From Nitrospirota bacterium (GTDB lineage: Bacteria > Nitrospirota > UBA9217), in assembly GCA_020052615.1 (NCBI GenBank), contig JAGVOT010000135.1, positions 1 to 39,359 of the forward strand: a stretch of 39,359 nt of DNA, written 5' to 3'. Under the pieces are notes generated by a model. That model searched no databases, was not told the origin of the DNA, and worked only from the letters and a program-made list of their open reading frames with translations. Numbering within the stretch: the first letter of the stretch is position 1; the number at the start of each line of letters is the position of its first letter. Shown one piece after another: positions 5,650 to 38,216 of the stretch. The position numbers and the translations under genes are program-made.

Positions 5650-6813
5650 ATGAAACTGATCGATATAGCCGTGAACAACCTGCGGCGGAAGAAGGGAAGG
5701 ACCTTTTTCCTGGTCTCCGGCCTGGCCCTGGGGATCGGCGCCGCCGTGGCGCTCACCTCGGTGGGCGACGCCATGAACCGCGAGGTGATGCACACGCTCG
5801 ACGAGTTCGGCGCGAACATCCTGGTGCTTCCCGCCACGGAGGACCTGCCCCTGTCCTACGGCGGCATGACCGTTTCGGCCATCAACACCGGCGGCAGGTC
5901 GCTGACCATCGAGGACGCCCGCAGGATCAAGACCATCAGGAACAGCGAGAACGTCAGCACCGTGGCGCCGAAGCTCCTGGTCGTCTCCGAGGTGAAGGGG
6001 ACCAGGGTGATGGTCGCCGGCGTGGACTTCCCGGCGGAGTTCAAGCTGAAGAAGTGGTGGCGCGTCTCGTCGGGCATGAAGCCCGGCGAGGTTTCCGAGG
6101 TGCTTGTCGGGAAGGACGCTGCGTCGAAGCTCTCTATCGCTCCCGGCGACACCGTGAAGCTCAATGGCGGCACGTACCGCGTGTCCGGCGTGCTGGGAGA
6201 CACAGGCTCCCAGGATGACAGCCTGATCTTCGCCGACCTGGCCACGGTCCAGAAACAGTTCAGGAAGGGGAACGCCATCAGCCTCATCGAGCTCGCCGCC
6301 CTCTGCGGCGGCTGTCCTATCGAGGACATGGTGGACCAGGTGAACGGCGCGCTTCCCGGCGCGCGGGCCGTGGCGGTGAAGGAGACGGTGGAGCTCAAGA
6401 TGCAGGCCATGCACTATTTCCACCGGTTCTCCCTCGGCATCTCGCTGCTGCTGCTGATCGTTGCGGGCATGATCATCTTCTTCGCCATGACCGCCTCCGT
6501 GAAGGAGCGGGTGCAGGAGATCGGTCTCTTCCGGGCCATCGGCTTCCGCGCGGGCCACATCATCAGGGTGCTTCTCATCGAGGCCTTCTTCGTGAGCTTC
6601 CTCGCGGGGGTCGTCGGCTACGCGATCGGGACCATCAGCCCGCGGTTCATCGCGCCCTATCTGATGAAGGCTTATACGCTGACGTTCGTTTTCGACCCGG
6701 TCATGGCCGTGGGAGCGGTCGCGGCGTCGGTTGTCGTGGGGCTTTTGGCCAGCGTCTACCCGGCGGTGCGCGCAGGGCGGCTGGACCCGATCGAGGCTTT
6801 AAGAACATTGTAA
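5650..6813 (+). CDS. FtsX/MacB-type ABC transporter permease
   Basis: 387 residues with the MacB/LolC layout: cytoplasmic start, TM1 (about 18-40), a large periplasmic domain, then three TM helices near 258-280, 306-332 and 355-378, and the terminal VRAGRLDPIEALRTL motif that contacts the ATPase. The periplasmic domain carries C219-G-G-C222, a CxxC that could bind metal or act in thiol exchange, unusual for a generic lipoprotein releaser. GAGGGAC precedes ATG 5650. It follows the DUF2318 gene and precedes its ATPase. Metal or cofactor handling at the inner membrane fits better than simple LolCE function, but the substrate is unknown. Confidence 0.85.
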   Translation: MKLIDIAVNNLRRKKGRTFFLVSGLALGIGAAVALTSVGDAMNREVMHTLDEFGANILVLPATEDLPLSYGGMTVSAINTGGRSLTIEDARRIKTIRNSENVSTVAPKLLVVSEVKGTRVMVAGVDFPAEFKLKKWWRVSSGMKPGEVSEVLVGKDAASKLSIAPGDTVKLNGGTYRVSGVLGDTGSQDDSLIFADLATVQKQFRKGNAISLIELAALCGGCPIEDMVDQVNGALPGARAVAVKETVELKMQAMHYFHRFSLGISLLLLIVAGMIIFFAMTASVKERVQEIGLFRAIGFRAGHIIRVLLIEAFFVSFLAGVVGYAIGTISPRFIAPYLMKAYTLTFVFDPVMAVGAVAASVVVGLLASVYPAVRAGRLDPIEALRTL

Positions 6814-6981: not shown

Positions 6982-7653
6982 ATGGCATTCATTGATCTCA
7001 AGGACGTTACCAAGGCTTTTCACGCGGGTGAGGAGGAGTATCCGGCGGTGCGGGGCGTCTCGCTCGGCATCGAGAGCGGAGAGTTCGTCGCGGTCATGGG
7101 GCCGTCGGGCTCGGGGAAAAGCACGCTCCTCTCCCTGGTGGGAGGCCTGAGCCATGCGACGTCGGGCATCGTATCGGTGGACGGGATCGACCTCGGCTCC
7201 CTCGGGCCGAACAAGCTTTCGGATTTCCGGAGGGAGTATCTGGGATTCGTGTTCCAGTCGTTCTACCTGGTGCCCTATCTTACGGCGCTCGAAAACGTCA
7301 TGCTGCCGCTCACGGTCCAGCCGGGGATGAACGGAACGGCAGGCGACGCGGCGCAGGAGGCCCTCCGGAAGGTGGGGCTTGCCGCGAAGTCCCGCCGGCT
7401 CCCGTCCCAGCTTTCGGGCGGCGAGCAGGAACGCGTCGCCATCGCCCGGGCGATCGTGAACAAGCCGCCGGTGATCCTCGCCGACGAACCCACGGGGAAC
7501 CTGGACACGAAGACCGGCGATCAGGTATTGGACATGCTTCAGGACCTGAACCGCGGCGGCCATACCGTCGTCATGGTGACGCACAACGTGGAGAACGCGA
7601 AGCGGGCGGGACGGACCATCGAGATCCGGGACGGGCAGGTCGTGTCAAACTGA
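6982..7653 (+). CDS. ABC transporter ATPase (LolD/MacB type)
   Basis: 223 residues, standard length for this class. Walker [10 protein letters not shown] (40-48), signature [14 protein letters not shown], Walker [12 protein letters not shown] and switch histidine VTHN are all present and intact. A TCAGGAG site precedes ATG 6982. It energises the permease encoded 168 bases upstream. In that gap lies a compound hairpin that could tune the ATPase level or process the transcript. Confidence 0.93.
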
Positions 7654-7891
7654 ACTTCGCCGGGGAAGCATGTGAAGAACGCCGTTGCTGAGACAACTGA
7701 TGCGGGGCAAAGACGGGATACCAGGATCATGAACCACCGGCTGCGGCTCGACAGAGCTCGTCGAGGTCATGGCAGCACACGGTGGGGACTATTCCGACCT
7801 GAAACCGGGACAGCCCGTCGCCCGACCTTATCCGTGCGTCCCGGCAACGTCGGGACCCATGGTTGCAGAACGTTCTTCGATGTAGGTTGGT
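7654..7891. other. Gap between converging genes, no gene supported
   Basis: About 240 bases between the ends of the ATPase and barrel genes. A small palindrome CTCGAC/GTCGAG (about 7746-7764) is the only structure I see. A possible 81-residue frame here is arginine-rich and lacks family features. Confidence 0.5.
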
Positions 7892-8557
7892 TCAGAACTC
7901 GAACAGGAATCCCATGAGGTAGCTGGTCCCGCCGAGGTTCACCTCGGGCGTTCCCACCGTTGCCTTCGTGACCTGGACCTCGCCGAAGAGATAGGTATGC
8001 TCAATGCCGAAATCGGAGGAAAGGTTGTGCGCCGCCCGGGGGTCAAGACCATCCAGGAGGAACTGCAGCCCCGCCCTCCCGTGGTATCCATCGGCTGAAC
8101 CGCGGGTCGTTTCCTGATCTTCGGTCTTCACACGGTAGTACATCCGCGTCCATCCCCCTCCCGCGTAAGGTACGACCCACTGTGTTTCCTTGAACACTCC
8201 TCGAAACAGGACGAAGACGTTGAGCGGCGCAAGCTCGTAGTCCACCCGCCCGGTCAGGACCGTACCGCCGAAAAGCGCGCTGTTCAGGGGAGCCGAGGCC
8301 AGCCCCCGGTCCTTGATATATCCCCCTTCGATGCCCACCTCAACCTGCCTGACCACCTTGTACGCCAGAGATCCCGCATAGTGCCAAGTCTTGTCGTCGC
8401 CATAGTAGGCCTTCCAGTTGTCGATGTCGGGATAGAAATATCCTCCCTTGAACTCGAGGGACCAGTTTGGTGCGGGCTCTGCGGGGTCCGCCGCGGGAAC
8501 GACCGCGGGGACGGCCAGCAGCATGACGAGCAACAGGACGATCGTTCGAACGCTCAT
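7892..8557 (-). CDS. Outer-membrane beta-barrel protein
   Basis: 221 residues: cleavable signal peptide (about 1-22, ending VPAAD), then alternating amphipathic strands (WSLEFKGGYFYP, VEVGIEGGYI, YLMGFLFEF) and a terminal phenylalanine, the usual signature for BAM-inserted barrels. Eight to ten strands would fit its size. Its start overlaps the stop of the upstream CFI-box protein gene by 4 bases (ATGA), so the two are co-translated. A role as an outer-membrane partner of that exported protein is inferred from the coupling. No enzymatic motif is visible. Confidence 0.8.
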   Translation of the reverse strand: MSVRTIVLLLVMLLAVPAVVPAADPAEPAPNWSLEFKGGYFYPDIDNWKAYYGDDKTWHYAGSLAYKVVRQVEVGIEGGYIKDRGLASAPLNSALFGGTVLTGRVDYELAPLNVFVLFRGVFKETQWVVPYAGGGWTRMYYRVKTEDQETTRGSADGYHGRAGLQFLLDGLDPRAAHNLSSDFGIEHTYLFGEVQVTKATVGTPEVNLGGTSYLMGFLFEF

Positions 8558-10482
8558 GATGGATACCCCTCAGGGTGGTGTGCACGCAGGGACCTCTTCC
8601 GGCGTGCGAGAAGCGCCGTCGGCGCGATCAGAAGCATTGCCGCGACGGCAAGCGCCAGGGAAGGCGCGCGGGTGATCACGAGGACAAGGGAGACGACCGG
8701 ATCGAGCGCCGCACGGACGAAAGGCTTCAGGCCGGGGTGCTCATTCAGGTACTGCGCCGCGGCGGGAGAGAACGAGTAATACCAGCGGACAAAGGACCTT
8801 CCCGGCGCATTCGTCTGGAGATGCCGGTCCCGGAACTCCCGGAGGACCTTGACGGCAAAGGCATCGCGGGACCCGTAGGCGGCTGTGGCGATGAAGCATC
8901 CCGTGTTCGGCAGGTTGGGGTAGGGGACGAGCTTCTCGGGAAGGCCCTGTACAGGGTCGGACGGCGGGCTTATTCCCGGCACGCCCACGTACAGGACCAA
9001 CTCTTCGGAATACCTGCTTTCGTCCTGAACTCCCGGATCGCCCGCTGTTGACGAGAGGTCGTACGCCGTCACCGCAAGATAGTACGGGGACTGAGCTTCC
9101 GCGGTTATCGAAATGGTATAGAGCTCTCCATTCACCAGTCCCGACAGGGTGTAGGACGTCGCGTTCGTGACGGTGATGGGAGGGAACGTAAGCGTCGGCG
9201 CGGACGACAGGCTGTAGTTGATGATGTAGCTTGTCGCCCCGGGAACGGCGGCCCAGGAAAGAAGGAGGCCTTCATTGCGGGGCTGCGGGGTGAACAATAC
9301 GGGCTTTGCGGGAGTTGCCGCGGTGGTGGTCAGCCCGGTGAGGACCACGCTGGTAGCGGTGTCCACATCGATGGGCGATGTCCTGGTCACGCCTGATACG
9401 ACGGCGTCGGTACCCGTGTAGCTCCCCCCCGGCGCCTGTCCGGAAGTCTTTCCATAATATACGTTGTAGCCCTTCGTGGAGTAGGCGTTGTTCGGAGACC
9501 ACGAGAGCGTGATGGTGTCGGTGATCGTCCCCGATGATGCCGAGACAACGCCGGAAACGTTGGAAACGATGAACGGTATCCTGTCGGACTGGCCGCCATA
9601 GGCGCCGATGTCGGTCCCTGACAGATTTCCTGTGTTATTGAAGCCCACCGAGGTGTCTCCCGCCGTTATGCACGGCGAACTGGCCAGCAGGTGGAAATCC
9701 AATTGGGTGATGTCGTTCGCTCCGATGAAGACGAAGGACGGGTCGAGCGTGGAAATGTTCCCATTCGCAGTGGTGAAATTAGGGTCAGACGAGAACGGTG
9801 TGGTCGTGACCGTTGTTATCAAAGGGGGACCGATGGTGCCGCCAAAGAAAAGGTTGTTCTTTATGGAGGACAGGGACACGTTCGAAGAGATCGCCGTACT
9901 GCTGGTGCTTTGGTAGAAGATATTGTTGATGATATTAAGATTTGCATCGTTGGATACAATACCGCTGCCGTTCAAATAGAACGTGTTATTGAAGACGCTC
10001 GTTGCCAGCGATCCTGATGTCGTGATCGCTGTACTGCCGGTCCCTACCTCGAATAGGTTGTTCCTGATGACGAGGGACGATGAATTCTGGACCGCGATGC
10101 CGACGTTCGCGCTGAAGAAAGTGATATTTCTGATGCTCATGGATGGGTTCGTCACGCCGCTGATGGTAAGGATCGTACCCGAACCGCCGCCGTTGAAGAT
10201 CGTCCGGCTGGTCTCGATGCCGTAGATCGAAACACTTTTATTCAGCGTTTCGTTCGCTACGGTGTGCGTGCCGGGACGTATTTCTATTGAATCACCCGCA
10301 ATTGCGTTGATGACGGCATCGTGAAACGAGAGATAGCAGATCGTCGTTGTCGTGACCGTGGGGCATTGATCGTTTGTTTCCACCACGACGTGCGTTACGG
10401 CGGCCACGGATGGGGACGAGATCAGCAGCACCGCGGCGGTGAGGAAAGCGGCAGACAGCGATAGCGATGAACAATATTTCAT
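8554..10482 (-). CDS. Exported beta-helix/FN3 protein with CFI-box C-terminal signal
   Basis: 642 residues. Signal peptide about 1-27; parallel beta-helix region (about 60-260) rich in N/S/T/I repeats such as NNLF, NNTFY, NNIFY, typical of NosD/right-handed helix proteins; two fibronectin-III-like modules (about 300-390 and 395-500); then a C-terminal block starting CFIATAAYGS (C529) followed by VKVLREFRDRHL, GRSFVRWYYSFSP, a hydrophobic helix and a basic tail (RRKRS). This is the CFI-box C-terminal domain, thought to be a surface or membrane sorting region. Serine/threonine enrichment suggests a surface protein. It is coupled to the barrel gene and has its own consensus-like promoter. Confidence 0.82.
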   Translation of the reverse strand: MKYCSSLSLSAAFLTAAVLLISSPSVAAVTHVVVETNDQCPTVTTTTICYLSFHDAVINAIAGDSIEIRPGTHTVANETLNKSVSIYGIETSRTIFNGGGSGTILTISGVTNPSMSIRNITFFSANVGIAVQNSSSLVIRNNLFEVGTGSTAITTSGSLATSVFNNTFYLNGSGIVSNDANLNIINNIFYQSTSSTAISSNVSLSSIKNNLFFGGTIGPPLITTVTTTPFSSDPNFTTANGNISTLDPSFVFIGANDITQLDFHLLASSPCITAGDTSVGFNNTGNLSGTDIGAYGGQSDRIPFIVSNVSGVVSASSGTITDTITLSWSPNNAYSTKGYNVYYGKTSGQAPGGSYTGTDAVVSGVTRTSPIDVDTATSVVLTGLTTTAATPAKPVLFTPQPRNEGLLLSWAAVPGATSYIINYSLSSAPTLTFPPITVTNATSYTLSGLVNGELYTISITAEAQSPYYLAVTAYDLSSTAGDPGVQDESRYSEELVLYVGVPGISPPSDPVQGLPEKLVPYPNLPNTGCFIATAAYGSRDAFAVKVLREFRDRHLQTNAPGRSFVRWYYSFSPAAAQYLNEHPGLKPFVRAALDPVVSLVLVITRAPSLALAVAAMLLIAPTALLARRKRSLRAHHPEGYPS

Positions 10483-10505
10483 TGTGAACCCCCGTGATCT
10501 TTTAG

Positions 10506-10534
10506 AAAATACCTAAATAGACGATGAAAGTCAA
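10506..10534 (-). promoter_or_regulatory. Promoter of the CFI-box/barrel operon
   Basis: On the minus strand TTGACT (10534-10529), 17-base spacer, TATTTT (10511-10506). The start codon is at 10482 with a G-rich ribosome site. Confidence 0.6.
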
Positions 10535-10638
10535 TTAAATTGCCGTGGCAGGCGGGCAGCTACGCCGCGACGGCAGGCCGGGATCCGCAATAAGTATTGT
10601 GATAAACTATATTTACTGTTTTTTTCTTCATTGCACTG

Positions 10639-10647
10639 TGTTATAAT
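10639..10647 (+). promoter_or_regulatory. Extended -10 promoter for the NHL gene
   Basis: TGTTATAAT: a perfect TATAAT with upstream TG. No good -35 is present, as expected for extended -10 promoters. The start codon is 72 bases downstream. Confidence 0.5.
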
Positions 10648-10719
10648 CCAACCCATCATTGCAGGCATGCCGCAGGAGGCCGGTCTCCCTTCTTGCGTGT
10701 GTCCTGCCGGGAGGATTCC

Positions 10720-13700
10720 ATGGCCCTGTACCGCTTCGCCGTACGCATTTCAGTTCCGCTCCTGTTCCTTGTTCTCATTGCCTCGTCGTCGCCCGCCTAC
10801 CAGCAGTTCGAGTTCGTACGGGAGATCGGCGAGTCAGGGAAAAAAACTCCCCAGCGTCTGCTGAACGAACCCCGGGCGCTTGCCCTTGCCGGCGACCGCA
10901 TCTACATCGCCGACACCGACGCCCATCGCGTCGTCGTGCTTGACCCGTCGGGAAAGACCGTGCTCACCTGGGGAAGCAGGGGGGACCGGAACGGCCAGTT
11001 CAAGGACCCCTCGGGCATTGCCGTGGACGAGCAGGGGAACGTGTATGTCGCTGACGGGGGGAACGGGCGCATCCAGATATTCGACGGCAACGGCATGTTC
11101 CTCCGGGGCTTCGGCACCGAAGGATTGGGCCCGAAGCAATTCAGCGATCCAGGCGGCATCAGCGTCGGCCAGGGGCTTCTCTATGTTGCCGACGGGGGGA
11201 ACAGCCGCGTTCAGGTTCTCACGACGGGAGGGATATTCCTGGGCCAGATCACCGTGACGACCAAAAAGGACGACATGAAGACCCCGGTGGATGTGGCCGT
11301 TGATGCTCAGAACCGGATCTATGTTCTCGACAGCGACAGGAACAAGGTGCGTGTCTTCAACGGCGGCGGGGTCCAGACGCTTGCGTTCGGTGGAAGCGGA
11401 AAGGGGACCGAAGGATTTGACGAACCGCTGGGGCTTGCCGTTGACGGCGCGGGCAATATCTATGTTGCCGACAGCGGGAACGCCAAGATCAAGAAGTTCG
11501 ATCCCCAGGGCAAACTGCTCGGCTCCATAGGATCGGAAGGACTTGGCCCGGGGCAGTTCAGAAGGCCGTCGGGGATCAAGGTCGACCGCGAGGGAAAGAT
11601 CCATCTCCTGGACCGCGGCAAGCATACGCTCCAGATATTCACCAGCGAGATCGCCGACAAGCCGCTCGTTCCTGTCTCCCCGCCTCCATCGGTCAGCCTG
11701 ATGAAGGAGATCCCGGGCGAGGTCGTCGCCCTTCTGGCGGACAAACAGCTCTGGGGCCTCTCCGGCGACGCTCTGGCCGAGCTGGGGGCCGAGGCCGGGA
11801 AAAGGATCGGGAGCCGGGGGAGCGAGCCGGCCATGCTCAAGGACCCGCGGGGGATGACGGTCGATGCCACCGGGAACTTCTGGGTCGCCGACACGGGCAA
11901 CGACCGTCTGCAGAAGTTCGGGCGTGACGGCGCATTGCTCCAGGTGATCGGCCGGTCCGGGTCGAAGGAGGGAGAGTTCAGCGCTCCTTCCGACGTCGCC
12001 CTGACCCTGAAGGGGAACATCGTCGTCGCCGACACCGGCAACCGCCGGGTGCAGGTCTTCAGCGCAAAGGGCCTGTTCCTCGGCGCCTTCGGCAGGTCGG
12101 GCGGACAGGCTGGGCAGCTCTCAGAGCCTGTCGGGCTTGCCGTTGACGGCAGCGAGAACATCTACGTCGTTGACCGGGGCAACAACCGGATCGCCAAGTA
12201 CGACAATTCCGGCGGACTGCTGTGGGAGGCCGGAAAGGCGGGAAAACAGGACGGCGAGTTCAAGGAGCCGGAATCCATCATCGTGTCGGCGGACGGCGAG
12301 GTATACGTCCTTGACACGGGCAACGGACGGGTGCAGATCTTCGACCGGAACGGTAAATTCCTGCGCAAGTTCGGGAGCGAAGGGAAGGGCCCCGGCGAGT
12401 TCCTGTCGCCTGTCGGGCTTGCCCTGGAAGGTGGCACCCGGCTTTTCGTCGGCGACCGCGGCAACAAGCGGGTGCAGGTCTTCACCCTGCTGCATACCCC
12501 GGCGGTCCCGGCCGAGGTGACGGCCCAGGCGAAGATGAACGAGGTCCAGGTGAGCTGGAAGCCGGGACCCGAGACGTACCTGGAGCACTACAAGGTCTAC
12601 CGCGCCGATGCTCCGGGCGGCGAGTACAAGCTGCTCACCGCCACGGCGGAGCCGTTCTTCGTGGACCGGGGACTGCCGAGCAACCGGTCGTACCACTACC
12701 GCATCAGCAGCCGGGCCAGGGACGGCAATGAGAGCTCATTGTCGGGCACCGTGTCGGCGGTGACGCCGCGCCTCGTGCCCTCGCCGCCGAAAAAGGTGAG
12801 GATCGATGCCGCGGAGAAGCAGATCACCCTTTCATGGCTACCGAACCTGGAGCCCTTCGTGAGCGCCTACCGGGTATACCGGACCACGCAGCTCGGCGCC
12901 GGGTTCGCGCCGGCCGCCACGATCGACCGCACCCTCTATATCGACGGATCGCTGACCGATGACACGCTCTATTACTATCAGGTCACGGCCGTGGGAAAAG
13001 AAGGGGACGAGAGCCAGCCGAGCGAGGTGATCTTCGCCTCCACGCCCAAGGCATCGCTCACCGCGCCGCCCGTGGAGATGGTCACGATCGAGATGCGCGA
13101 GATCTTCGCGTCTTCCTACAAGCACTATGAGTCCCATCCCCTGGGGAAGGTCGTGCTCCGGAACAATACGGACATCCCGTTCCCCGCCGCGAAGCTCACC
13201 TTCTCCATCAAGGACTACATGGACTTCCCGACGGAGATCGCTGTCCCCGAGATCGGCCCGAAGCAGGGGACGGACCTGCTGGTCAAACCGGTGTTCAACA
13301 ACCGCATCCTGGAAGTGACGGAGAACACGCCGCTCCAGAGCGAGATCGCCCTGACCTACTACAGCGCCGGCGAGGCGAAGACCGTGAAACGGAGCTTCCC
13401 GGTCATGCTCTATGAGCGCCATGCCATGACGTGGGACCAGAAAGAGAAGATCGGGGCCTTCGTGACGCCGAAGGACCCGCCGGTGGCGGACTTTGCCCGC
13501 GGCGTGATCCAGCCGTACGTGGACGCCTATCCGAACCTGCATCCGTCCCTCGTCTATGGCCGGACCGTGTACGCCGCCCTCGGGGTGTACGGGCTGTCGT
13601 ACATCGTCGATCCTTCAAGCCCCTTCCAGGAGTTCTCGGAGAAGGCGACGGTCGTCGATTACCTCCAGTATCCCCGCGACACCCTTGCCCGGAAGAGCGG

Positions 13701-26368: not shown

Positions 26369-26428
26369 AACTAACGCGCGGCTGACCCACCGGGCGAAGC
26401 CCGGACGGAGTCGAGCCGCTTGTTAAGC
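26369..26428 (-). mobile_element. Integron attC recombination site (60 bp)
   Basis: Read on the minus strand: R'' GCTTAAC (26428-26422, fits RYYYAAC), AA, L'' GCGGCT-C-GAC, a 23-base centre that folds on itself (CCGGGC/GCCCGG), L' GTC-AGCCGC, GC, and R' GTTAGTT (26375-26369, one mismatch to GTTRRRY). L'' carries one extra unpaired base (C at 26413), the hallmark extrahelical base of attC. The brnA stop TAA lies inside R'', the usual geometry of a gene cassette with gene and attC in the same orientation. Only one clear attC is found and no integrase is in the window. Confidence 0.82.
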
Positions 26429-26707
26429 CCTCTTTTTTTCTATTAAGTAGCCGGAGACAAATTTGTGAATGACGCTAGAGATCAATGTTTGATAGGGCAC
26501 GCCTTCCTGGGCAGCAATGACCTGGACCTGATCTAAATCTTTTGAAGACATCCGAATATTAATTCTTTTGTCTTTCAAAAGCGTATTTCTAGCATAAGCT
26601 TTCAGCTTATTGATTTCCACCTTCGGATTCCTAACGGTTCTCCATTCGCCACGATCAAAGGATTCCGAAATTTTCTTTTCTTCTTCATTCAAAGTTATTT
26701 TTTTCAT
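26423..26707 (-). CDS. brnA: BrnA-like CopG-family antitoxin
   Basis: 94 residues. An acidic N-terminal segment (NEEEKKISESFDRGEW) that would bind the toxin, then KDKRINIRMSSKDLDQVQVI...VPYQTLISSVIHKFVSG, a ribbon-helix-helix DNA-binding domain. This is the BrnA/CopG antitoxin layout. It overlaps the toxin gene by 4 bases (ATGA), with the toxin first, the standard brnTA order. It neutralises BrnT and represses the operon. Its stop codon lies inside the attC R'' box. Base composition is clearly more AT-rich than the neighbouring uup. Confidence 0.85.
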   Translation of the reverse strand: MKKITLNEEEKKISESFDRGEWRTVRNPKVEINKLKAYARNTLLKDKRINIRMSSKDLDQVQVIAAQEGVPYQTLISSVIHKFVSGYLIEKKRA

Positions 26708-26982
26708 TTCTTTCCCCTCACATATTTATCCGTAGCTTTTCTGCTCGGAATGAGCGTCTTCAGAAAAATCTCATCCCCGTCGTGAACATAAGGAACGAGA
26801 TAAGCGTAATCATCGATCATGACGACTGCCATCCTTTGGCCAGGATACTCATCCTGATTGGGATGCTCGACCACATCGAGAACTTCTCCCCGTTCCATCA
26901 AAAGAACAACCTGCTCGAAACAGACGCCTCGATGCTCTTTCAGCCATTCATTCTTATCGTTGTTCCATCTGAAAAACCTCAT
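26704..26982 (-). CDS. brnT: BrnT-like toxin (ribonuclease)
   Basis: 92 residues beginning MRFFRWNNDKNEWLKEHRGV, containing FEQVV, VVEHPNQDEYPGQRMAVVMIDD and IFLKTLIPSRKATDKY. The length, order and strand pattern fit the BrnT toxin family, RelE-fold ribonucleases that inhibit translation under stress. It is more divergent than typical BrnT, so the exact catalytic residues cannot be pinned. No ribosome site precedes the ATG at 26982; the promoter -10 ends six bases before it, so a leaderless transcript is expected. With brnA it forms the cargo of an integron-type cassette. Confidence 0.78.
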   Translation of the reverse strand: MRFFRWNNDKNEWLKEHRGVCFEQVVLLMERGEVLDVVEHPNQDEYPGQRMAVVMIDDYAYLVPYVHDGDEIFLKTLIPSRKATDKYVRGKK

Positions 26983-27017: not shown

Positions 27018-27403
27018 CCGGTTTCGTGGTACAACGGATATATAGGGGTGGGCCGATACGTGCAAGAGGTTAATGAGTGGAATAGTTTCGTATAGTCCGA
27101 TTTTTCAATGCCTACAACGATGCTACGGCTATGATTTTGTGATTTTAGAAGCCAAGGAGTCAAACAAGGCGCTCACTGCTTTTGGCAACTCCCAAATGAT
27201 TGTAGACAGTTTGCCTGACAAACCCAAAACAGAACAAACAAGGAGGACAATCTCCATACTTCCCAAAAACGATTGCTCGATCCGAACAGATGATGCCTTA
27301 GCTCTCTGTTGATTGTGAGAACGAATATATGCCTGATTCAAAGCGATGTCAACAATGGCGGAAGGGTATTATAAGGTTAGGCGTCGAAGAATGCGGTTTG
27401 AAC
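27018..27403. other. AT-rich stretch without a convincing gene
   Basis: The segment is poorer in GC than its surroundings. A 70-codon minus-strand frame (27129-27341, TTG start) encodes one hydrophobic segment and could be a cassette ORF, but it lacks a ribosome site. TTAGG/CCTAA inverted words at 27377-27381 and 27410-27414 include one GTTAGGC, which fits an attC R box, but no complete attC can be built. Confidence 0.5.
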
Positions 27404-27877: not shown

Positions 27878-27924
27878 TTGACAAAGTGTATTAAATACAC
27901 TATACTCAGTGTCAGATATACACC
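27878..27924 (+). promoter_or_regulatory. Consensus promoter with palindromic NrtR-type operator
   Basis: TTGACA (27878-27883), 17-base spacer, TATACT (27901-27906). The spacer is almost wholly a perfect 17-bp palindrome AGTGTATTAAATACACT (27885-27901). A second weaker half-site pair, GTGT-N7-ACAC, lies at 27909-27923, 23-24 bp (about two helical turns) downstream. Binding would block RNA polymerase; autoregulation by the encoded Nudix regulator is expected. Confidence 0.82.
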
Positions 27925-27942
27925 AAGGTCAGGGAGGTACCG

Positions 27943-28632
27943 ATGGACGACCGGATAAAGTGCAAACAGGCCCATGTTACCGTTGATTGTGTTGTTTTCG
28001 GGCTCGATGAACAGGACCTGAAGATCCTGTTGATCCAGCGGGGCTATGAACCGTTCAAGGGGTCCTGGGCCATCCCGGGCGGGTTCGTCAACGCCGATGA
28101 ATCGCTCGAGGCTGCGGCCCTGCGGGAGCTTAAGGAGGAGACGGGCGTGCAGGACGTGTTCCTCGAACAGCTCTACACCTTTGGCGACGTGCACCGCGAC
28201 CCGCGCAGACGGATCGTTACAGTCGCCTATTACGCACTGGTGAACCTCCGGGACCATACGATCAAGGCGGCGACCGATGCCAGCAACGCGGCGTGGTTCG
28301 GTGTGGACGACATTCCCAAGCTCGCGTTCGACCATGCAAGGATCGTCGAGACGGCGCTCCGGCGGCTCCGGGGGAAGGTGCGGTACGAGCCTATCGGGTT
28401 CGAGCTGCTTCCCGAGAAGTTCACCCTCACCCAGCTCCAGCGCATGTACGAGAAGATCCTGGAGCAGGATATCGACAAACGGAATTTCCGGAAGAAGATC
28501 CTGGGCATGGAGCTGCTCAAGGAGCTCGATGAGGTACAGGTGGATGTGGCGCACCGGGCGGCGCGGCTGTACCGGTTCGATGAGAAGAAATACCGGCAGT
28601 TGAGGGAGAAGGGATTTAATTTCGAAATATAA
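27943..28632 (+). CDS. nrtR: NrtR-like Nudix transcriptional regulator
   Basis: 229 residues: N-terminal Nudix domain (about 8-140) and C-terminal winged helix (about 150-229, [27 protein letters not shown]). This is the NrtR layout, in which an ADP-ribose-binding Nudix fold controls DNA binding to NAD genes. Unlike many NrtR proteins, the Nudix box is complete (G-x5-E-x7-RELKEETGV), so hydrolysis of ADP-ribose or a similar nucleotide remains possible. GGGAGGT precedes the ATG, and the promoter carries a perfect palindrome of the right kind. It sits upstream of NAD-kinase-like and ADP-ribosylglycohydrolase genes. Confidence 0.88.
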
Positions 28633-28720
28633 ATTCACTTCTGCGACGGAGTCACGGAGAATGGAGAAATAACTACAGTCATAATCCGGAAAGCCAGAAC
28701 CAAAAGCAGAAGAAAAAGGC

Positions 28721-28801
28721 GTCTCTCGCAAAGCCGCAAAGGACGCAAAGGAAATCATGAATCCTGTTTCAAAAAAAAGGAATTGTTTTCTTTGCGAGAC
28801 A
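28721..28801. repeat. Compound hairpin, CTTTGCG family
   Basis: Left arm 28721-28756 (GTCTCTCGCAAAG, CCGCAAAG, GACGCAAAG) and a shorter right arm 28785-28800 (TTTTCTTTGCGAGAC). It lies between nrtR and the SPFH gene. Confidence 0.75.
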
Positions 28802-28874
28802 ACAGATCTTAGTTACTGATTCGAATCAGTATCTGTCGCATGGACTTGTTGCTCGAGAACGAAAGGAGGCCATT

Positions 28875-29888
28875 ATGTTCGGCTTACAATTCATAAAAGC
28901 GGATCCCACGGTCTATCTCATGCAGTACCGGAACGGCAGGGCGGTCCGGCAGGGAGCGGGGCTTTCGTTCTTCTACTTCGCGCCCACGACGTCGCTCGTC
29001 GCGGTCCCGGTGGGCAGCGTCGATCTTCCCTTCATATTCAAGGAGGGGACCGTCGATTATCAGGAAGTGACCGTGCAGGGCCAGGTCGTGTACCGCGTCG
29101 GAGACCCGGAAAAGCTGGCTTCGATGCTGAACTTCGCGCTCGATGGAGAAAAGCAGAAGTATGTGTCCGACGATCCCGAGAAGATCCCTGCGCGGATCGT
29201 CAACCATGTCCAGGTGCTCTTTCGCGACGAGGTCCAGGGTCTGGCGCTGCGGGAGGTGCTGAAGGCGTCCGAGGTCCTGGTGAAGAAGGTGCGAGCGGCA
29301 TTGACCGGCTCATCGGTCCTGGCCGCCCTGGGGATCGACGTGCTCGACCTCTCGGTCGTCGCCATCAAGCCGACGCCGGAAACGGCGCGCGCCCTCGAAG
29401 CCGGCATCCGCGAGCAGCTTCTGAAGGAAGCGGACGAAGCCATCTATGGCCGCAGGAACGCGGCGATCGAACAGGAGCGGGCGATCAAGGAGAACGAGCT
29501 GAACACCGAGGTCGCTGTGGAGAACAAGCGGCGCCAGATCAGGGAGACCCAGATGGACGCAGAGCGGGCAGTGCAGGAGAAACAGCGGCTGCTCCGAGAC
29601 GAGAACATGACCGGCAGCATCTCCCTTGAAGAGCGGAACCGCGAGCTGGTGCAGCTCAGCGCGGAGAACGCGCGGGTCGAGGCCGATGCCAAGGCCTACA
29701 GCATGGCGGCGGTGATGGACGCCATGGCGAAGATCGATCCCAAGGTCCTGAACAGCCTGGCGAGCATGGGCATGCAGCCCAACCAGCTGATCGCTGCGTC
29801 TTTCCGGGAACTTGCCGGGAGCGCGGCAAAGATCGGCGAACTGAACATCTCTCCCGATCTGCTCAGAGAACTTGCGAAGAACAGATAA
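28875..29888 (+). CDS. SPFH/band-7 domain protein
   Basis: 337 residues. N-terminal SPFH domain (about 15-200; QYRNGRAVRQGAGLSFFYFAP, VTVQGQVVYRV, a helix-rich QVLFRDEVQGLALREVL) followed by a long charged coiled coil (about 195-260) and a C-terminal tail. No clear transmembrane helix; an N-terminal hydrophobic patch may dip into the membrane. Band-7 proteins oligomerise as membrane-linked scaffolds. AAAGGAGG lies six bases before the ATG. It sits between the NrtR-like regulator and the NAD-kinase-like gene, which suggests it scaffolds the NAD/ADP-ribose enzymes; this is inference from position. Confidence 0.87.
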   Translation: MFGLQFIKADPTVYLMQYRNGRAVRQGAGLSFFYFAPTTSLVAVPVGSVDLPFIFKEGTVDYQEVTVQGQVVYRVGDPEKLASMLNFALDGEKQKYVSDDPEKIPARIVNHVQVLFRDEVQGLALREVLKASEVLVKKVRAALTGSSVLAALGIDVLDLSVVAIKPTPETARALEAGIREQLLKEADEAIYGRRNAAIEQERAIKENELNTEVAVENKRRQIRETQMDAERAVQEKQRLLRDENMTGSISLEERNRELVQLSAENARVEADAKAYSMAAVMDAMAKIDPKVLNSLASMGMQPNQLIAASFRELAGSAAKIGELNISPDLLRELAKNR

Positions 29889-30087: not shown

Positions 30088-30156
30088 TGTCCCTGGTGAG
30101 GTATTCTCTGAAAAGTCAGCGCTTCTGTAGCAGTTGTTCAGTGTGTGAGGTCCTGT

Positions 30157-31092
30157 ATGAAACGCCTGACGGAGAACAAGATCATCCTGGTTGTGAGGAC
30201 CACGAGGCTTGAGGAGCTCATTGCCCGCTTCAACACGATGGAACAGGCGAAGTTCTACATCGAGCATCTTGGCGCGGACTTCTCGGACTACGAGGCTGAG
30301 CACCGTCAGTATAAAGAGGCGCTTCGGGACACGGAGATGCAGCTTCGGGAGCTTGGACGCGTCCAGACGCTGGACCGGGTGTTTCTGACGAACTTCCTGT
30401 TCGGGCCGGAAGATATGGTGGTGGTCCTGGGCCAGGACGGCCTGGTTGCCAACACGCTCAAGTATGTCGACGAGCGGCCGGTCGTTGCCGTGAACCCCGA
30501 TCCGCGGCGCTGGGACGGCGTTCTGCTGCCGTTCCGCGTGAACGACGTGAGGCCGATCGTCCTCGAGGTCTTCGGCCGGAGGCGGCAGGTCCGGGAGATC
30601 TCCATGGCCAGGGCCCGCTTGAACAACGGACAGCAGCTGTACGGCGTGAACGACCTGTTCATCGGCCATCGTTCACACGTTTCCGCCCGGTACGAACTGG
30701 CCCTAGGACAGAAGCATGAGCGGCAGTCCTCGAGCGGCATCATCGTCTCCACCGGGCTGGGCTCCACCGGGTGGTTCACCAGCGTGCTGGCGGGGGCGGC
30801 CGGCATCGGCAGGGCGCTGGGAAACTCCATCGAGACGGACATCGTGAAGGATTTCCGGTGGGAGTCGGATTATCTCTACTATACCGTTCGGGAGCCCTTT
30901 CCGAGCAGGACCTCAACTGCGTCCTTCGTGTTCGGCAAGGTGACGTGCAGGGAACCGCTCACCGTGCTCTCCCAGATGCCGGAGAACGGGGTGATCTTCA
31001 GCGACGGCATCGAGTCGGATTTCCTGGATTTCAACTCCGGGACCCGGGCGGTCGTGGACGTAGCGGAGAAAAAGGGGTACCTGGTGGTGTGA
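30157..31092 (+). CDS. Divergent NAD-kinase-fold protein
   Basis: 311 residues from ATG 30157 (GTGAGG six bases upstream). An N-terminal helical extension of about 85 residues (EELIARFNTMEQAKFYIEHLG) precedes an ATP-NAD-kinase core: strand then GQDGL (92-96) where NAD kinases have GGDGT, later GVNDLFIGHR (N165-D166, the NE/D motif) and GIIVSTGLGSTGW (about 194-206, the STPTGST loop). The altered first motif keeps Asp94 and Gly95, so activity could persist with another substrate. It lies 25 bases before the ADP-ribosylglycohydrolase, almost certainly one transcript. It may phosphorylate NAD, ADP-ribose or a relative. Confidence 0.8.
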   Translation: MKRLTENKIILVVRTTRLEELIARFNTMEQAKFYIEHLGADFSDYEAEHRQYKEALRDTEMQLRELGRVQTLDRVFLTNFLFGPEDMVVVLGQDGLVANTLKYVDERPVVAVNPDPRRWDGVLLPFRVNDVRPIVLEVFGRRRQVREISMARARLNNGQQLYGVNDLFIGHRSHVSARYELALGQKHERQSSSGIIVSTGLGSTGWFTSVLAGAAGIGRALGNSIETDIVKDFRWESDYLYYTVREPFPSRTSTASFVFGKVTCREPLTVLSQMPENGVIFSDGIESDFLDFNSGTRAVVDVAEKKGYLVV

Positions 31093-31117: not shown

Positions 31118-32182
31118 GTGAGCAAGATCAGGGATAGTATCGTCGGTTGTCTCCTTGGAACCGCTGTCGGTGACGCGCTCGGCCTGCCCTATGAAGGCAT
31201 GACGGGCTCCCGGGGCGGGAGCATGTTCCCGGACCGCTGCCGACTTCACTTCCTTCCCGGTTACGGAATGGTCTCGGATGATACGGAGCACGCCTGCTTC
31301 ACCGCCCGGGCGCTCATTGCGTCAAAGGGCGATCCGGACCGGTTCGAAAAGGAACTGGCCTGGTCGCTTCGCTGGTGGCTCCTCGGAATGCCGGCGGGAA
31401 TAGGATTCGCGACGCTTCGGTCGATCCTGCGGCTTTGGGTCGGGATCCCTCCGGAGAGGTCGGGAGTGTTCTCGGCAGGGAACGGTCCTGCCATGAGAAG
31501 TCCCCTCCTCGGTGTCGCATACGGCAATTCTCCGGAAAGACTCAGGGAATTCGTGCTTCGATCGACGCGGCTTACCCATACTGATCCGAAGGCGTATTAT
31601 GGAGCGCTGGCCGTTGCAGTTGCGGCGCACGCGAGCGCGGAAGGGTCGGTAGCTCCTCATGATTTTCTTAGAGTCCTCAGGGAAACCCTGCATGACGCGC
31701 CGGCGGGGGAACTCCTCGGGCTCATTGACAGGGCATGCAGTTCGGCGGAGAGGGACGAGCCGGTCTCTGCGTTCGCGACAGGCATCGGGAGCAGGAACGG
31801 GATATCAGGTTACATGTATCACACGGTAACCTGTGTTATCCAGGTGTGGCTGCGTCATCAAAAGGATTATTCAGCGGGGATTAAGGAGATCATCACTGCC
31901 GGAGGCGATACGGACACGACTGCCGCGGTCCTTGGGGGGATCATCGGGGCCGGTGTGGGCCATGCAGGCATCCCCCGGAACCTGCTGGCAGGGATCGTGG
32001 AGTGGCCGCGCAGCACAGCCTGGATGGAGCGACTCGGCATAGTTCTCGCGCGATCATTGAAGGAACCTGGCAACGCGGAGGCGCCGGGTTACTTCGTTCC
32101 GGCCATTCCGCTGAGGAACGCTTCTTTTCTGCTGGTGGTTCTTGCCCACGGCGTCAGAAGGCTGTTTCCCCCGTACCGGTAG
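31118..32182 (+). CDS. ADP-ribosylglycohydrolase family protein
   Basis: 354 residues from GTG 31118 (GGAGG upstream). Helical ARH/DraG fold with the two metal motifs: GCLLGTAVGDALG then SDDTEH (53-58) and GGDTDT (262-267), followed by AAVLGGIIGAGVG. These bind two Mg2+ and the ribose of ADP-ribose. Members reverse protein ADP-ribosylation (as DraG does for nitrogenase reductase), or hydrolyse free ADP-ribose derivatives. No DraT or other transferase is nearby; the NrtR-like regulator and NAD-kinase-like gene point to NAD turnover. The ribosome site and short gap indicate coupling to the kinase-like gene. Confidence 0.9.
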   Translation: MSKIRDSIVGCLLGTAVGDALGLPYEGMTGSRGGSMFPDRCRLHFLPGYGMVSDDTEHACFTARALIASKGDPDRFEKELAWSLRWWLLGMPAGIGFATLRSILRLWVGIPPERSGVFSAGNGPAMRSPLLGVAYGNSPERLREFVLRSTRLTHTDPKAYYGALAVAVAAHASAEGSVAPHDFLRVLRETLHDAPAGELLGLIDRACSSAERDEPVSAFATGIGSRNGISGYMYHTVTCVIQVWLRHQKDYSAGIKEIITAGGDTDTTAAVLGGIIGAGVGHAGIPRNLLAGIVEWPRSTAWMERLGIVLARSLKEPGNAEAPGYFVPAIPLRNASFLLVVLAHGVRRLFPPYR

Positions 32183-38158: not shown

Positions 38159-38190
38159 AATAAAAAAGGCCCGGAATAATTCCGGGCCTT
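38159..38190 (-). terminator. Terminator of the ferritin-like gene
   Basis: Stem AAGGCCCGGAA (38166-38176) and TTCCGGGCCTT (38180-38190) with a three-base loop. On the minus strand it is followed by TTTTTATTT. It may also stop weaker transcripts from the deacetylase side. Confidence 0.88.
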
Positions 38191-38216
38191 TCGTGTTCTC
38201 AGTGATGTTTTCCGCA

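Follow-up and report, generated by a model that had tools for sequence, protein, structure and literature searches.

The window analysed here is a stretch of 39,359 nucleotides, contig C41 of a 3.99-Mb Nitrospirota assembly in 135 contigs, in which four forward-strand genes, for an NrtR-type regulator, an SPFH/Band-7 protein, an accessory NAD-kinase-like protein and an ADP-ribosylglycohydrolase, follow a promoter region with two GTGT-N7-ACAC sites. The features are, in order:

27878–27883, + strand: -35 hexamer TTGACA of the nrtR promoter (promoter match)
27885–27901, unstranded: predicted operator 1, AGTGTATTAAATACACT, with a GTGT-N7-ACAC core, overlapping the -35/-10 spacer and the first base of the -10 box
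27901–27906, + strand: -10 hexamer TATACT (promoter match)
27907–27925, unstranded: predicted operator 2, CAGTGTCAGATATACACCA, 23 bp downstream of operator 1
27943–28632, + strand: nrtR (P0001), Nudix sensor domain and NrtR winged-helix domain (PF21906, 1.5e-28; PF00293, 1.9e-23)
28633–28874, unstranded: 242-bp gap with dispersed genomic repeats (at least 48 matches in its own genome including itself, with 40 of 72 candidates scored)
28875–29888, + strand: SPFH/Band-7 protein (P0002; PF01145, 7.2e-17), 71% identical in L035
29889–30156, unstranded: second repeat gap, 268 bp (at least 27 matches in its own genome including itself, with 40 of 58 candidates scored)
30157–31092, + strand: accessory NAD-kinase-like protein (P0003), resembling mitochondrial NADK2; a GTG start at 30145 is possible
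31118–32182, + strand: ADP-ribosylglycohydrolase, DraG-like (P0004; PF03747, 5.8e-62)

Palindromic sites at the nrtR promoter

The nrtR promoter, TTGACA-N17-TATACT (27878–27906), is an 11/12 promoter match with a 17-bp spacer at 27884–27900. The original prediction described a perfect 17-bp palindrome exactly filling the spacer of a consensus promoter; the palindrome is present as AGTGTATTAAATACACT at 27885–27901, a central A flanked by two perfect 8-bp arms, and is as long as the spacer, but it is offset by one base, and so occupies spacer positions 2–17 together with the first base of the -10 box. It is the sole match to its own sequence on either strand of the window when up to three mismatches are allowed (shuffle mean 0.01), and one of four odd palindromes there with arms of at least 8 bp. 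A second GTGT-N7-ACAC pair had been placed 23–24 bp further on, and is found as the core of operator 2, GTGTCAGATATACAC at 27909–27923, 23 bp from operator 1 start to start; no other GTGT-N7-ACAC match occurs in the window. Operator 2 probably covers the inferred transcription start, and the two sites have a tandem layout of the kind that cooperative repression would need.

Conservation was assessed across 36 regions upstream of nrtR, comprising the window, 23 of the 52 loci from a first search, L091–L096 from plasmid and phage searches, and six proteobacterial modules (L099–L104), among which L104 is unannotated and its nrtR start approximate. The remaining 29 loci, mostly from Chryseobacterium and Zobellia and including two partial matches, were omitted to thin near-duplicates; near-duplicates still among the 36 are two Rhizobium rows and the pairs L059/L061, L043/L045 and L039/L040. 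The pattern TTAGTGT-N7-ACACTAA is matched at 10 or more of its 14 positions in 26 of the 36 regions with a spacer of 7, against at most 16 with any other spacer from 0 to 14; it exceeds first-order Markov shuffles of the same sequence in 20 regions (P<0.05, uncorrected), and in the other 16 no site significant at that uncorrected threshold was found directly before nrtR. Tandem pairs 22–27 bp apart occur in 12 regions, the spacing being 22 bp in L035, L099 and L103; 23 bp in the window, L036 and L091; 24 bp in L080; 25 bp in L100, L102 and L104; and 27 bp in L044 and L101. Under a loose placement criterion, which admits up to nine promoter matches per region and also yields in-spacer matches in L047–L049, L083 and L091, the site lies inside a 17-bp promoter spacer in the window, L035, L036 and L080, and between the boxes of a promoter that points towards the SPFH gene in L100, L101, L102 and L104.

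Within the 3.99-Mb assembly, AGTGT-N7-ACACT occurs exactly in two places, the window and contig C103 (reversed control, none), the C103 copy lying 72 bp upstream of a 98-aa ORF with no sign of NAD function. The longer TAGTGT-N7-ACACTA, with at most one mismatch, is found at the window site only, but its reversed control pattern gave three matches, so that rarity by itself is no proof. At five places that differ from the full palindrome by three bases, the match falls within an ORF or next to one, and no NAD gene was recognisable there when the ORFs were judged by eye. The search for further copies near NAD genes, proposed as a check, was thus negative in this genome; the C103 copy and the five mismatched places gave no sign of a wider regulon here, and the regulator looks dedicated to one operon. 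Among relatives, such sites do precede NAD or ADP-ribose genes, in L036, L080, L092, L093 and L094.

The regulator and its predicted ligand

The C-terminal winged-helix domain of P0001 scores 99.2 bits against PF21906, above the curated cut-off of 27, and the N-terminal domain is a Nudix domain (PF00293, 1.9e-23); against the NCBIfam equivalog NF050029 (ADPR responsive NtrR) the protein scores 178.8 bits, below the 400-bit cut-off. The closest solved chain is 5bs6 (AraR), followed by 3gz5, which we take to be SoNrtR, the residue numbering in the alignment being in agreement. PADLOC returned one match for P0001 (PDC-S07, 1.3e-11, over the Nudix domain) and none for P0002–P0004, and a pattern-based scan of viral contigs, sensitive to close relatives only, found no relatives of P0001 or P0003.

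The DNA co-crystallised with BtAraR reads AGTGT-TACTTTT-ACACC, the contacts of the protein defining the GTGT motif (PMC4666351, section 15), and the DNA contacts listed in that paper, in the helix and wing, are Lys179, Arg180, Asn181, Lys184, Lys204 and Arg205. P0001 keeps five of these six (Lys179, Arg180, Asn181, Lys184 and Arg205), with His in place of Lys204. Retained contact residues and a shared DNA core tie the palindrome to P0001 by homology and, with the recurrence of the site in relatives, uphold the proposal that it is the regulator's own site: sequence comparison makes it very probable that the palindrome serves as operator for the regulator gene next to it. A chance palindrome, or the site of an unrelated regulator, might be entertained given three further odd palindromes in the window with equal or longer arms; conservation of core, spacing and position in relatives, and the match of the core to the solved BtAraR–DNA complex, leave that reading very little probability, and chance was rejected on these grounds.

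SoNrtR contacts ADP-ribose through Arg41 and Arg98, and the adenine in its N-terminal arm region, whereas in BtAraR the residue equivalent to Arg98 is Gly (PMC4666351, section 14). Arg33 and Arg88 of P0001 align with the two SoNrtR arginines, in accordance with the expectation of an NrtR-type regulator retaining the main arginine contacts to ADP-ribose; at the phosphate-contact positions Asn43 and Lys76 of SoNrtR it has Tyr and Glu66, and the aromatic N-terminal arm of L035–L038 is missing from it. The AraR-type pocket residues Gly89 and Phe36 are absent, P0001 having Arg88 and Tyr35, and the catalytic Nudix box is intact, as had been claimed (RELKEETG). Across the 36 rows, a complete REXXEE box is found in P0001 and 15 others, and the residue at the Arg98 position is Arg in 25, namely all 16 rows with that box, three rows from Bacillota and the six modules from proteobacteria. 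The 11 rows lacking this Arg comprise ten that are near AraR or are without an adjoining recognised NAD gene, and L080, which lies beside nadB and in which Asp takes the Arg98 position, no Arg aligns with Arg41 and the box is degenerate; this loss of the pocket beside nadB indicates that an NAD-gene neighbour and an ADP-ribose pocket are not always paired. From its residues, the ligand of P0001 is likely to be ADP-ribose-like.

The same operator could respond to an effector other than ADP-ribose, either a pentose, as in AraR, or NAD/NADP directly, as in NdnR. BtAraR is the closest solved relative of P0001, reads the same GTGT-N7-ACAC core and shares five of six listed DNA contacts, and its tandem sites are likewise about 24 bp apart (21-bp sites with 3 bp between them in most genomes); NdnR of C. 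glutamicum is cited as NAD-responsive in PMC4666351. AraR, however, senses arabinose, and has a degenerate Nudix box and Gly where P0001 has Arg88; the box of P0001 is intact, and the nine window proteins scanned include no sugar genes, those for arabinose among them. We regard a different effector as unlikely, and the sugar-sensing reading was set aside on Arg88, the intact box and the neighbouring genes.

The preferred ADP-ribose-like inducer raises the question of whether its hydrolysis by the regulator is the release step, as the original prediction had allowed, or the reset step. The complete REXXEE box of P0001 and 15 other rows would suit such a switch, but the box is degenerate (RKLKEKTG, RVLKEKTG) in all six proteobacterial nrtR/SPFH/kinase modules examined, so that hydrolysis is no requirement of the switch, and MsNrtR, which binds an N7 palindrome and is released from it by ADP-ribose (50 mM as printed), showed no apparent hydrolase activity (PMC6800001). 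Release through hydrolysis is accordingly unsupported, and a catalysis-coupled switch of either kind appears improbable.

The nrtR/SPFH/kinase module

The two gaps bear repeats over 242 and 268 bp, so the downstream genes may be uncoupled from the nrtR promoter; an 80-aa ORF in the second gap is probably not a gene. The tandem site could then control nrtR only, the operon being split by the repeats and the SPFH, kinase and glycohydrolase genes expressed separately, and an 18-bp palindrome at 28814–28831 precedes the SPFH gene. Against this stand the absence of any + strand promoter match in 28633–28874, the arrangement in L035, where the nrtR, SPFH and kinase genes either overlap or are at most 14 bp apart, and, under the loose criterion, the site in the SPFH-facing promoter spacer of L100, L101, L102 and L104; a split of this sort is judged unlikely. 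The palindrome itself, TACTGATTCGAATCAGTA, is perfect, lies 43 bp before the SPFH start and is possibly another regulator's site.

Control of the whole operon is the preferred reading, and its parts recur together elsewhere. The nrtR/SPFH/kinase module is found in another Nitrospirota genome (L035, regulator 79%), in Rhizobium and in gammaproteobacteria. A further Nitrospirota genome (L115), in which no NrtR winged-helix match was found, has contiguous SPFH, kinase and ADP-ribosylglycohydrolase genes, the glycohydrolase being 48% identical to P0004; this contiguity makes the glycohydrolase probably a true operon partner and bears out the operon link originally drawn to it. Of 71 plasmid records matching P0003, eight (L099–L106) were examined: SPFH adjoins the kinase in all eight, and a divergent NrtR-type gene is present in six (two Rhizobium, Moraxella, Methylomonas, Providencia and Proteus), with only a partial Nudix match of 70 residues in Streptomyces (L105) and no NrtR-type gene in Roseomonas (L106). 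In the Roseomonas kinase homologue (L106, 4980–6167), inspection by eye shows a hydrophobic segment close to the C-terminus, consistent with a membrane location. On the Moraxella plasmid (L100, 3118–7865) the module adjoins tet(H), and small plasmids of other species carry matches to the C-terminal half of the kinase only.

The kinase was not found in 13 genomes of the same genus or family, some of them incomplete, in which matches to P0001 are absent or weak and confined to part of the Nudix domain, a distribution that suggests horizontal gain. Among 295 Nitrospirota genomes it is matched in 18, strongly in four, counting the window's own genome. P0003 was not found in phage records, and the DNA of the Providencia module has no match in E. 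coli genomes.

P0003 has no Pfam match, NAD_kinase (PF01513) included, and only two of 11 members of its family match PF01513, weakly (best 0.0066). A profile of the 11 members finds mitochondrial NAD kinase 2 in the PDB at 8.4e-18, as the best solved match and with the N-terminal region included, the next NAD kinases following at 2e-5 or weaker; PDB 7r4j is taken here to be human. The loop motif GQDG is invariant in all 11 members, in contrast to GGDG in the printed PDB rows, and the family further differs from mitochondrial NADK2 in being bacterial and tied to an SPFH gene, NAD phosphorylation by it being putative. One canonical NADK, separate from P0003, is encoded elsewhere in the genome, which makes P0003 accessory. 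In NADK trees, a split with support of 100/99 separates the canonical NADKs, among them yeast POS5, from mitochondrial NADK2 and the bacterial family, with NADK2 midway on a long branch; given that branch, the few rows, the partial PDB rows and the unrooted tree, a sister relation can be taken only as a lead. PMC6675116 calls the origin of the mitochondrial NADK clade unknown. The SPFH family gave no match to solved structures at E 0.01.

It is tentatively proposed, with more doubt than confidence, that nrtR, SPFH and NADK2-like kinase, with or without the glycohydrolase, form an undescribed, horizontally moving and membrane-scaffolded accessory NAD kinase module, ADP-ribose-induced and NrtR-repressed, whose kinase belongs to the bacterial family nearest mitochondrial NADK2. 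In that case, bacteria would possess a localised, inducible means of supplying NADP or of responding to NAD damage, and their kinase would be a clue to the origin of mitochondrial NADK2.

Six of nine close loci have an NAD or ADP-ribose gene downstream of nrtR: an NADK2-like kinase in L035; macro domain, nicotinamidase, KptA-type RNA 2'-phosphotransferase and two ADP-ribosylglycohydrolase genes in L036 (Planctomycetota, 74%); nicotinamidase in L038; L-aspartate oxidase (nadB) in L080; NAD synthase in L092 (a Leptospira plasmid); and, with NrtR, a nadM-like gene scoring under the curated cut-off and a nadV-like gene in L093 (6995–11671 of a 636-kb phage record). L037, L078 and L091 have no NAD gene directly downstream. 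The GTGT-N7-ACAC site of L093, at 9078–9096, spans the first ATG of the nadM ORF, the true start of which is probably further in. More distantly, a nicotinate phosphoribosyltransferase is encoded in L079, and in L094 a site at 6659–6677 precedes a PRPP synthase gene and a nadV-type gene; other nrtR neighbourhoods were judged by eye only. The L036 cluster (7001–11422) has the same tandem operator in front, and on Leptospira interrogans plasmid p1 (L092, 6956–14654) TIR-domain and abortive-infection-like genes lie some kb downstream of nrtR and nadE.

Predicted regulation and known systems

Operator identity, tandem layout, promoter overlap and operon partners are strongly indicated, and comparison of sequences makes it likely that the two sites form the tandem operator of the NrtR repressor encoded just downstream, controlling the nrtR, SPFH, kinase and glycohydrolase genes with an ADP-ribose-like inducer. 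Without ligand, two NrtR dimers would bind both sites cooperatively, covering the -35/-10 region together with the transcription start, and would silence all four genes by blocking RNA polymerase. Binding of ADP-ribose or a closely related molecule, for which 2'-phospho-ADP-ribose and NAD(P) are possibilities, in the Nudix pocket would rotate the DNA-binding domains off the DNA; the intact Nudix box may let P0001 slowly clear the inducer, induction itself needing no hydrolysis. The operon would then respond locally to NAD breakdown or an increase in ADP-ribose, with the SPFH protein perhaps holding the glycohydrolase and kinase at a membrane scaffold, and ADP-ribose produced by the glycohydrolase may feed back on the regulator. 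Such a metabolite loop is plausible. The feedback idea is not new: section 3.8 of PMC9503650 proposes that operons controlled by Nudix transcription factors are switched on by ADP-ribose that ADP-ribosylglycohydrolases release, and thus predicts it for other glycohydrolase systems.

The ARG-centric anti-ADP-ribosylation systems of that section share with this locus an ADP-ribosylglycohydrolase and a Nudix transcription factor, but no phosphatase or peptide-binding chaperone was found among the nine window proteins scanned; a phosphatase occurs in a little over 55% of ARG-centric systems according to PMC9503650, so its absence here is not decisive. Neither SPFH nor NAD kinase occurs as a term in the main text of that paper. 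NrtR regulators such as SoNrtR and MsNrtR have the Nudix sensor and winged helix in common with P0001, together with the N7-spaced palindrome of MsNrtR, the Arg41/Arg98 contacts of SoNrtR and an NAD-gene neighbourhood in several relatives; P0001 differs from them in its intact catalytic box and BtAraR-type recognition helix, and its cargo is SPFH, NADK2-like kinase and glycohydrolase in place of NAD synthesis genes. The operator type is known, whereas the cargo looks new: no description of the module was found in open-licence literature, as covered by listings, the starts of abstracts and main texts only, nor is it described in the portions consulted of PMC10434189 and PMC7159879, both of which hold several of the terms. 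A palindrome noticed by eye becomes a concrete, testable predicted operator with a known structural template, and a three-gene module in Nitrospirota and Pseudomonadota would couple an additional NAD kinase and an SPFH scaffold to the sensing of ADP-ribose.

Two further features of the window lie outside these genes. Upstream, on the - strand at 26423–26982, is a BrnT/BrnA-like toxin–antitoxin pair, both members below Pfam cut-offs, with TTGACA-17-TATATT promoter matches at 27352–27324 and 27017–26989. Towards the end of the window, a 27-bp perfect inverted repeat at 38165–38191, AAAGGCCCGGAATAATTCCGGGCCTTT, is terminator-like.
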